Virus record (IMG/VR): IMGVR_UViG_3300025000_003491
Location: 1 to 39,823 of that record
Reading direction: 5' to 3' (one strand)
Length of the DNA: 39,823 bases
Source of the DNA: a virus
The notes below the pieces were generated by a model. It was not told where the DNA came from. It made no database searches and was given only the letters and a program-made list of their open reading frames with translations. The translations under genes were made by a program, and so were the position numbers. This document shows positions 30,816-33,681 of the stretch, in pieces; positions within the stretch are counted from its first letter, which is position 1, and each line of letters starts with the position of its first letter.

Positions 30816-31088
30816 ATGAATAAAATTCGCAGAGGGCAGATTCAGGAAGCGATTGATCTGTTGGAAAATGCCAAAGGAATTATTGAAAGTTGTAAAGATG
30901 AAGAACAGGAATATATTGATAATATGCCTGAACCGCTTCAAAATAGTGAAAGGGCCCAAAATGCTGAAAATGCTGTAAGTAATTTGGATGAAGCTGAGTA
31001 TAATATTTCTGATATTATTGAAACTTTGGAGGACGCGGTTTCCAATATTGATAATGCTATAAATAGTGCCGAGCAGGCCAAAGAATGA
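30816..31088 (+). CDS. Acidic coiled-coil protein (90 aa)
   Basis: MNKIRRGQIQEAIDLLENAK is followed by a conserved-looking DEEQEYIDNMPEPLQNSERA block and two more heptad helices. The block with N-x-P-E-x-L-Q-x-S-E-R is familiar from small phage proteins of unknown role. SD AAGGAAGGAAAA. Likely a helical hairpin that dimerises. Confidence 0.7.
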   Translation: MNKIRRGQIQEAIDLLENAKGIIESCKDEEQEYIDNMPEPLQNSERAQNAENAVSNLDEAEYNISDIIETLEDAVSNIDNAINSAEQAKE

Positions 31089-31282
31089 AAGTACCGCCTG
31101 AAGTAACATTAAAAGTAAATATAACGGAGGTTCATTTTACCCGTAAATTCAATTTTGGCAATTATGAAACAATGGATATTGGGTATGTTGCAACAGTAGC
31201 GCCGAATCAAAAGCCGGAGGACGTAATCAAAGCGTTGGATTTAGAAACAATCAAATACAGAAAATGGAGAACAGAAAAGTGA
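31085..31282 (+). CDS. Hypothetical small beta-rich protein (65 aa)
   Basis: The gene overlaps the previous one by ATGA. The sequence FTRKFNFGNYETMDIGYVAT resembles a motif in small phage and archaeal proteins next to SSB genes (KFNLGNYE then alternating hydrophobics). It is probably a single beta-sheet domain. Its stop overlaps the GTG start of the SSB gene. A role with SSB is inferred from position only. Confidence 0.65.
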   Translation: MKVPPEVTLKVNITEVHFTRKFNFGNYETMDIGYVATVAPNQKPEDVIKALDLETIKYRKWRTEK

Positions 31283-32412
31283 AAAAGAAAAGCAAAAGCA
31301 ACAGTTTGAAGAATAGAATGAAAAGAAGCTATGAAAATCGGGAAGGCCGCAGTAGATCATCCGCTTTAGATTTCAGTAAACTTGACGATATTAAATTTTT
31401 TGAACCAAAGCTAGATAAAAATTATATTGACATTGTTCCATATATAATTACTACAAAGAATGATCCTCTTATCCATTCAGGGGACGCTGAACTTAATGAC
31501 CCATCATATATGCTTGAATTGTATTTGCATACATTTATTGGCCCTACCCATGCGGAAATAATCTGCCCGAAATCCAATTTTTTTAAAGAATGCCCGATAT
31601 GCAAACAAGCACAAGAATTAAAAGATGCTGGGAAAAAAGATGACGCTGGTGAATTATGGCCTTCTTTGTTCTGTTATTATAATGTAATAGATAAAACTAA
31701 ACCGGAAGAAGGTTTGAAAGTATTCAAGATAAAATTCAATAAATTTGAAAAACAATTGGTAACAGCCGCAAGGGTGGCAGCAACAATTGCAAATGATGAT
31801 GAAGATGACAAACCAAGCAATAGCGCGGAAAATTATATTGATTTTAGCAGTATTGATGACGGTCAATCAATCAAGTTTTGGGGAGAAAATGTAACAAAAG
31901 CAATAAAAGGCAGACAATCAACATATCTTGAATTTTCAAATTTTACTTTTACAAAACGAAAAACTGCATTGGATGAATCTTTGATGGATGAAGCGGTAAA
32001 GTTTGATACTTTGATGAAGATTCAAACTCCCAAACAAATAGAAACCTTGCTATATGGCGAAGATAAAGAATCCGATGATGAAGATGAAAAGCCCAAGAAA
32101 GGCACTTCCAAAAAGAAACCCGATATTGATGACGATGATGAGGACGAACCGCCCAAGAAAACTTCAAAGAAACCTCCGGCCAAAAAGAAGCCGATTGAAG
32201 AGGACGACGATGAAAAAGATGACGAGGACGATGAAGAAGAGGATACTGATGAAGATGCGGATGAGTCCGATGATGATACGGATGAGGAAGATGAAGCGGA
32301 GGAGGATAACGAGGATGAGACTGACGATGATGAAGATGATGAGCCGCCCCCGGTAAAGAAAGGGAAAACCGTAATCGGGAAAAAGCCAGTGCCTCTAAAA
32401 AAAAAGAAGTAG
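31279..32412 (+). CDS. gp32-like single-stranded DNA-binding protein, zero-frame product (377 aa)
   Basis: Ligands His84, Cys96, Cys105 and Cys108 (ICPKSNFFKECPICK) give the spacing of the T4 gp32 zinc site, H-x11-C-x8-C-x2-C against H-x12-C-x9-C-x2-C. The N-terminal basic arm (KNRMKRSYENREGR) and DIVPYIITT block also fit. The tail from ~residue 265 is a very long Asp/Glu run broken by Lys/Pro blocks. GTG at 31279 is chosen over an ATG 15 bases upstream because GGAG lies nine bases before it and GTGA overlaps the previous stop. A -1 shift near the end would add 43 residues. Confidence 0.85.
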   Translation: MKKKSKSNSLKNRMKRSYENREGRSRSSALDFSKLDDIKFFEPKLDKNYIDIVPYIITTKNDPLIHSGDAELNDPSYMLELYLHTFIGPTHAEIICPKSNFFKECPICKQAQELKDAGKKDDAGELWPSLFCYYNVIDKTKPEEGLKVFKIKFNKFEKQLVTAARVAATIANDDEDDKPSNSAENYIDFSSIDDGQSIKFWGENVTKAIKGRQSTYLEFSNFTFTKRKTALDESLMDEAVKFDTLMKIQTPKQIETLLYGEDKESDDEDEKPKKGTSKKKPDIDDDDEDEPPKKTSKKPPAKKKPIEEDDDEKDDEDDEEEDTDEDADESDDDTDEEDEAEEDNEDETDDDEDDEPPPVKKGKTVIGKKPVPLKKKK

Positions 32413-32537
32413 AAAAAAATAAATGTCCGGCAGGGCATAAATTCGGATTAGATCATGACAAGTTCAAGGAGGATTGCGAAGAATGCGATATATGGGCTGA
32501 ATGTATGAGACGAAAAAATCAGTTGAAGAATAAATAA
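32395..32537 (+). other. Probable -1 programmed frameshift site and C-terminal extension of the SSB
   Basis: Nine A then G (32397-32406) contain the heptamer A_AAA_AAG in the SSB frame, the slippery site of E. coli dnaX. The SSB frame stops six bases later (TAG 32410-32412). In the -1 frame, translation continues for 43 codons: KCPAGHKFGLDHDKFKEDCE is followed by EC, a Trp and another Cys, and the frame ends at TAA 32535. I recall similar CPxGHxFG-C-C-C tails ending other phage gp32-like SSBs. The -1 frame has no start codon before the motif. A homopolymer sequencing error is the alternative. Confidence 0.65.
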
Positions 32538-32557
32538 ACGCATATGGCGTCTATAAT
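32529..32557 (+). promoter_or_regulatory. recA promoter of the TCTATAATAT family
   Basis: TATAAT (32552-32557) is preceded by TC and followed by AT, with AATAAA 17 bp upstream. The -10 lies inside the stem and loop of the inverted repeat 32542-32574. SD AAGGATGATACC precedes ATG 32593. Confidence 0.6.
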
Positions 32558-32580
32558 ATAAGTAGACGCCATATTTTTAT
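32542..32580 (+). terminator. Terminator hairpin overlapping the recA promoter
   Basis: ATATGGCGTCTA (32542-32553) pairs perfectly with TAGACGCCATAT (32563-32574) around a nine-base loop, followed by TTTTAT. It would end the SSB operon. The recA promoter -10 is inside the same sequence, so a transcript starting there (~32564) lacks the left arm and cannot form the hairpin. Confidence 0.7.
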
Positions 32581-32592
32581 AAGGATGATACC

Positions 32593-33681
32593 ATGACCAA
32601 AAAAGCATCGATGGATATAGAAAAAACTATTTTGCATAAAGAAAAGGAAAGTAAATCGCGTATATGTTTTCCGACCGGATCGGATTTGATGGATATCCAG
32701 GTTGGCGGCGGTGTAACAAAGGGATATCCGGCTGGAAGGATAATAAATATAGTTGGCGATAAATCCAGCGGAAAAACATTCATGGCGATTGAAGTTATCG
32801 TTGCCGCGTATTATAAATATAAAGAACGTATGAAATGGGTATACGATGATTGCGAATCCGGTTTTTCTTTTGATACCAAAAAACTATACGGCGTGGAAAT
32901 AATGCCGTTGGATCAAAAGAAAAGGACAAAATCAAAAACAGTCGAATCCGCATATTGTAATATACGATTATTTCTTGAATCATTAAAAGATAATGAACTT
33001 GGTATTTACGTCATAGATTCTTTGGATTCGCTTAACGACAAGGAAGGCGAAAAAATAGCAGACGAGCAGTTCACAAAATTCAAGAAAAGGAAATTATCAC
33101 CGCAGGAAAAAGAGGACAAAGAAAAAGGTTCTTACCGCATGGCGAAACCCAAATATTTGTCCAATACTTTTTTCCCTTCATTGTCTGATTTGATTGAAAA
33201 GAAAAATGCATTATTGATTATCATATCTCAAGTCAGATGCAATCTTGATCCGATGAGTTTTGAAAAATATACGCGGGCTGGAGGAAAGGCAATGGATTTT
33301 TATTGCCATACGGTTTTATGGCTTGCGAGTGTAGAAGATATAATAAAAAAAGGCATTCCGGTTGGAGCGGTTACAAAAGCAAAAAATGCGAAAAGCAAAA
33401 CACCAAGGCCGAGGCGAAGCGTATTTGTAAAACTTTTATTCGATTATGGAATAGACAATATCCAAAGCAATGTAGATTATTTATATGATATTTTGACGCC
33501 AAGAGGGAAATTGATAAAGAATCCATCCGGGGAATGGGATGGGGAAAATATGTCCCGGTTGAATCTTATAAAATATATCGAAGAACATAAACTTGAAAAA
33601 GAATTGAAAAAAAGGACGGCTGAAAAATGGGAAGCGATAGAGGAAAGCGTGAAGAGCAAACGGACTCCAAAATACCAATGA
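32593..33681 (+). CDS. recA-like: RecA-like recombinase (362 aa)
   Basis: The product has Walker A VGDKSSGKT (55-62), Walker B IYVIDSLDSL near residue 137, an L2-region block ISQVRCNLDPMSFEKYTRAG then GKAMDFYCHTVLWL, and a basic helical C-terminus. It matches phage RecA/UvsX-type strand-exchange proteins. It should form filaments on ssDNA and cooperate with the SSB just upstream and the SbcCD-like pair. It has its own promoter placed within a terminator. Confidence 0.9.
   Translation: MTKKASMDIEKTILHKEKESKSRICFPTGSDLMDIQVGGGVTKGYPAGRIINIVGDKSSGKTFMAIEVIVAAYYKYKERMKWVYDDCESGFSFDTKKLYGVEIMPLDQKKRTKSKTVESAYCNIRLFLESLKDNELGIYVIDSLDSLNDKEGEKIADEQFTKFKKRKLSPQEKEDKEKGSYRMAKPKYLSNTFFPSLSDLIEKKNALLIIISQVRCNLDPMSFEKYTRAGGKAMDFYCHTVLWLASVEDIIKKGIPVGAVTKAKNAKSKTPRPRRSVFVKLLFDYGIDNIQSNVDYLYDILTPRGKLIKNPSGEWDGENMSRLNLIKYIEEHKLEKELKKRTAEKWEAIEESVKSKRTPKYQ

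Follow-up and report, generated by a model that had tools for sequence, protein, structure and literature searches.

A conserved Cys/His tail lies in the -1 frame across an A9 run in a phage gp32-like SSB gene and may be reached by transcriptional slippage

Introduction

Length variants that arise by slippage have been described in dnaX, in secretion genes and in insertion sequences. In Citrobacter rodentium, transcriptional slippage on the A11 run of tssM1 makes a short form and a restored long form, and both are needed (PMC4256274). The phage SSB gene analysed here resembles tssM1 in that a poly-A run stands shortly ahead of an early stop and slippage would restore a C-terminal domain that is in frame in homologues (PMC4256274). 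The tssM1 homologue tssM3 of Yersinia has the reverse polarity, as phage SSBs with an in-frame A9 run may also have (PMC4256274). There is a difference in kind, however, because tssM1 is a bacterial secretion gene with an A11 run whose slippage was shown by experiment, whereas the A9 and A10 runs of the phage SSBs are known from sequence alone. The dnaX gene of Thermus thermophilus provides a second parallel, with an A9 run late in a replication gene and two C-termini (PMC1088944), but there the templated frame leads to the long form and in the phage SSB to the short one. The E. coli dnaX site shares with the phage site the A_AAA_AAG heptamer, the -1 direction and a replication protein as product. 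However, the shift shortens the dnaX product and would lengthen the SSB, and the phage SSB sites are without stimulators and have run length, not the heptamer, as their common feature.

The protein itself is best compared with T4 gp32 (PF08804), with which the phage SSBs share the core fold, the His/Cys zinc ligands of the core, an acidic C-terminal part and a gene adjoining UvsX. They differ in carrying a further, C-terminal Cys/His module, which T4 gp32 is not known to possess. Slippage has been suggested earlier in one phage gene, a Campylobacter phage methyltransferase (PMC2853527), and searches of an open-access paper library returned no frameshifted phage SSB.

Results

An SSB gene with a split frame

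The window, by which we mean the whole stretch of DNA that was analysed, is a complete 39.8 kb record of an uncultured virus. The SSB gene and its surroundings contain the following features:

31264..32412, + strand: gp32-like SSB, 0-frame ORF of 382 aa, the predicted short form, ending ...PVPLKKKK (phrog_1192, family profile, PF08804 in relatives, 1gpc match of a relative's model)
32064..32396, + strand: acidic, Lys-rich linker, probably disordered, borders approximate (sequence; the corresponding part of a relative's model has low pLDDT)
32397..32405, + strand: A9 run, putatively slippery (sequence)
32400..32406, + strand: A_AAA_AAG heptamer in the SSB frame (sequence)
32410..32412, + strand: 0-frame stop TAG of the short form (sequence)
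32406..32537, + strand: -1-frame tail and its stop, with the conserved C-x3-H...C-x2-C...C module, apparently accessible by slippage only (tail profile; no start codon)
32542..32579, + strand: hairpin and T-run resembling an intrinsic terminator, within a few bases 3' of the tail stop (fold -18.7 kcal/mol, z -5.9)
32593..33681, + strand: UvsX/RecA-like recombinase, the next gene (phrog_97, E = 1e-39; PF00154, E = 6e-20)

The 0 frame of the SSB ends CTA AAA AAA AAG AAG TAG, with a G directly after the A9 run, and A_AAA_AAG does lie in this frame close to its stop, as the initial annotation had it. The -1 frame opens across A9 and continues for 43 codons (EVEKNKCPAGHKFGLDHDKFKEDCEECDIWAECMRRKNQLKNK) to a stop at 32535-32537. 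Translation and a start-codon check agree with the first description of this frame as 43 codons with CPAGHKFG and a C-x2-C...C pattern and as start-less before the motif: ahead of the first Cys it has no ATG, GTG or TTG, nor any ATT, ATC, ATA or CTG, all of which were looked for. The A9 run is the sole A/T run of at least nine in the whole window. A6G heptamers are abundant, with 43 on the + strand, and the heptamer alone is therefore uninformative; the weight of the evidence lies instead in the homology of the tail and in the recurrence of the same arrangement in other phages. In two-sequence searches, profiles built from relatives matched both the 0-frame protein (core profile; 171 bits, E = 3e-54) and the -1 frame (tail profile; 54 bits, E = 3e-18), and on these scores the homology of both parts to the SSB family is far above chance.

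A tailed family of gp32-like SSBs

The initial assignment of the window protein as a gp32-like SSB is borne out by homology to the gp32 core. The protein matches phrog_1192 (E = 9e-5); PF08804 (gp32), though not matched by the window SSB, is matched in 27/56 relatives; and a structure model of the relative L354, which is not the window fusion protein and has a tail of middling confidence, matches 1gpc by fold comparison (E = 2e-6). Across 56 aligned relatives, the window itself not among them, H89, C101, C110 and C113 of the core are invariant, and we take these to be the zinc ligands of T4 gp32. The same alignment has invariant C280, C297, C300 and C306 in the tail, with H284 almost so, which suggests that the family has two metal sites, the second of them in the tail.

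A DNA pattern for CPxGHxFGxDx(D/E)xF was run against IMG/VR, and the profiles were built from its matches; these comprised 109 stretches, with the motif nearly always at the C-terminus of an SSB. The initial annotation described tails of this kind as fused in frame in other phage SSBs, and the relatives confirm as much: the tail is in frame in 192/200 distinct SSBs that carry it, and is for this reason regarded as a real part of the SSB. It is likewise in frame in L346, the nearest relative of the window by UvsX, and tail-less SSBs are present in some UvsX-related phages. Pfam returned no meaningful match for the tail, and a search with the window SSB core returned no close relatives. The INPHARED phages gave one weak core match and nothing convincing for the tail (one tail query being a consensus-like sequence that we wrote ourselves).

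Several minor features were seen in and around these genes. Zinc-knuckle-like CxxCxGTG repeats stand ahead of the tail in the SSB linkers of L010, L065, L077, L078, L094 and L110, and in L010 they are also present in the -1 frame. In L387 a TAA at 2323 interrupts a long poly-Glu stretch, which runs on in the same frame to KPKKKHGKKVKRK. A stand-alone small ORF in L044 (7330-7560) has the tail-like motif CPFGHRFGLDFD, with no SSB core on that stretch. In the window, a small ORF (31085-31282) overlaps the SSB start, and a similar-looking ORF comes after the SSB in L346.

The same break in other phages

The tail is out of frame in eight of the 200 distinct tailed SSBs with the core on the contig, and seven of these eight have A9 or A10 at the break, all seven with a -1 shift. 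Besides the window, seven further loci have the tail at -1 across such a run (L010, L032, L408, L420, L412, L415 and L422); the L422 contig is without the core and was counted by comparison with L412, with which it is grouped by its tail. An A9 or A10 run is found at the transition in 8/8 sites including the window, and in the broken loci the 0-frame stop comes a few codons past it. The CPxGH tail in the -1 arrangement is present in six lineages, to which the eight loci, window included, belong. A quick tree of the core places L408 close to L420 (0.06), whereas L032 is 0.96 substitutions/site from its nearest neighbours and the remaining broken genes are farther.

Where the longest A-run of the linker is at least nine, 7 genes are broken and 7 in frame, as against 1 broken and 185 in frame for shorter runs (Fisher 1e-8), a contrast that is overstated because some of these genes were retrieved with patterns demanding an A-run; five of the eight broken loci came solely from a pattern demanding A8G near the tail. 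In scans not selected for A-runs, and with the window left out, the corresponding counts are 2 broken and 5 in frame (runs of at least nine) vs 1 broken and 173 in frame (p = 0.004). A scan of 3.3 Mb of fetched loci flagged frame breaks at runs of at least nine at these SSB sites only.

Two pairs of loci allow a closer comparison. L412 and L422 keep A9-G-TAA though their surroundings have diverged (63% identity). Their tails differ by 8 synonymous and 12 non-synonymous codons in the tail frame, compared with 1 + 18 and 4 + 18 in the other frames, with dN 0.24 and dS 1.25; judged by these substitutions, the tail frame is under purifying selection. Around the site L408 and L420 are separated by substitutions and by no indel, with the tail at -1 in both, and their tails are too alike to inform on selection (dN 0.08, dS 0.15). 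A frame transition kept across homologues, with the new frame under selection, is one mark of programmed transcriptional slippage, and this combination is present here. The terminator-like hairpin and T-run past the tail stop, which in the window was identified by folding, was recognised by eye in L408, L420, L412 and L422.

Other breaks and matches were rejected. L177, the exception among the eight out-of-frame SSBs, is broken by +1 within an acidic repeat, and L096 and L382 have breaks inside the core; none of these is an A-run case and they are probably errors or damaged genes. A scan of genome_contigs with a loose pattern yielded largely chance matches, an A9G scan with a looser CPxGH motif added chance matches only, and an A-run/tail scan at longer spacing found nothing.

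Discussion

We consider it moderately probable that the window encodes a two-form SSB, of which the long, tailed form is made by RNA polymerase slippage on A9. Read as templated, with no slip, the gene would give the 382-residue SSB, stopping at the TAG just past the Lys run. In some transcripts the polymerase would slip on A9 and add one A, and on the resulting A10 mRNA ribosomes would continue in the -1 frame of the DNA into the conserved Cys/His tail of ~43 residues, the DNA thereby setting the ratio of tail-less to tailed SSB. We infer that both proteins are produced, two forms being the likely output, and the tail may act as a zinc module and adjust the binding of partners. The close relationship of L408 to L420 and the in-frame tail of L346 count against this reading. 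A recurrent case in gp32-like SSBs would bring a DNA-phage replication protein into the set of variants made by slippage. More tentatively, and with rather more doubt than belief, we propose that several phage lineages independently placed the SSB Cys/His module under a polymerase-slippage run, with the genome fixing the tailed:tail-less ratio and the in-frame A9 relatives doing the reverse; the stoichiometry of a phage replication protein would then be set by slippage. With such a case the role of the tail would become testable, because nature offers tailed, tail-less and apparently two-form versions of the SSB. As a warning, automatic annotation drops the tail in split-frame SSB genes.

A mis-called homopolymer had been raised at the outset as another explanation of the window. 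Long homopolymers are prone to error, and a true A10 that lost one A in sequencing or assembly would give exactly such a -1 break in a gene whose tail is simply in frame; direction alone is consequently no proof of reality, because one lost A would always give -1. However, the same error would be needed in seven further contigs, in one of them from A11, and the calls include not one in-frame A10, either across the SSB linkers or among the coding runs tallied over the 3.3 Mb. Moreover, seven SSBs have A9 called in frame, and L408 and L420 agree although they come from different samples. With independent contigs sharing the arrangement and in-frame A10 absent, a miscall at the window A9 is unlikely. 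Homopolymer runs also mutate through slippage, and tailed and tail-less SSBs both exist as fixed forms, as would suit a phase variation in which phage genomes switch between a tail-on (A10) and a tail-off (A9) state by replication slippage. Every broken locus is in the off state, however, and no A10 on-state was found, which makes such switching very unlikely. The least credible reading is that the tail is a separate small protein made by re-initiation, or else a decaying remnant. L032 does have an ATGA stop-start overlap and L044 its stand-alone tail-like ORF, but ATG, GTG and TTG are absent from 7/8 tail frames, the motifs of the tail are intact, and in L412/L422 dN falls well short of dS.

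Programmed -1 ribosomal frameshifting on A_AAA_AAA_AAG, in the manner of E. coli dnaX, would yield the tailed form with no change in the mRNA. The initial annotation read the window in this way, and its heptamer stands: A_AAA_AAG is in the 0 frame in the window, L010, L032, L408, L412 and L422, and directly past the A10 run in L420, such that most broken sites have the strong E. coli heptamer in phase. With lineages tallied by hand, it is present in 5/6 broken vs 2/8 in-frame A9G lineages (Fisher p 0.10), a non-significant contrast in favour of the ribosome. The shift is -1 in all six lineages, and by one published rule such a uniform direction is a sign of ribosomal frameshifting (PMC3711429). 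Other properties of a dnaX-type site did not hold up. At none of the eight sites was a well-placed SD-like element or a stable hairpin found (best z -1.8), and the L415 site is without A_AAA_AAG. In 178 in-frame linkers, heptamers within A6-A7 are plentiful and not avoided (44 seen vs 29.7 expected), and none marks a broken gene, whereas A-runs of at least eight number 8 vs 57.9 expected under synonymous shuffling (0/300 shuffles). This avoidance could alternatively reflect DNA replication slippage. We favour polymerase slippage because run length, and not always the heptamer, is common to the broken sites, because runs of at least eight are avoided in frame while the heptamer is not, because stimulators are absent, and because of the literature; frameshifting by the ribosome is possible but doubtful. 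Sliding of the ribosome along poly-A was discounted, since ~11 A are required (PMC4363877). In many bacteria a length of nine is often the point from which A/T runs are selected against, and Thermus dnaX slips at A9 (PMC1088944). At A7-A11, insertions have at least double the efficiency of deletions (PMC6260861), and such an excess would explain why all the breaks are -1.

Further A-runs were noted. In L100 a single SSB linker has two in-frame A9G runs, each reading AAA AAA AAA GTA GAA, and in L402 (4590-4610) an A7 run at a gene end has a -1 frame open for 62 codons, which we list as a candidate.
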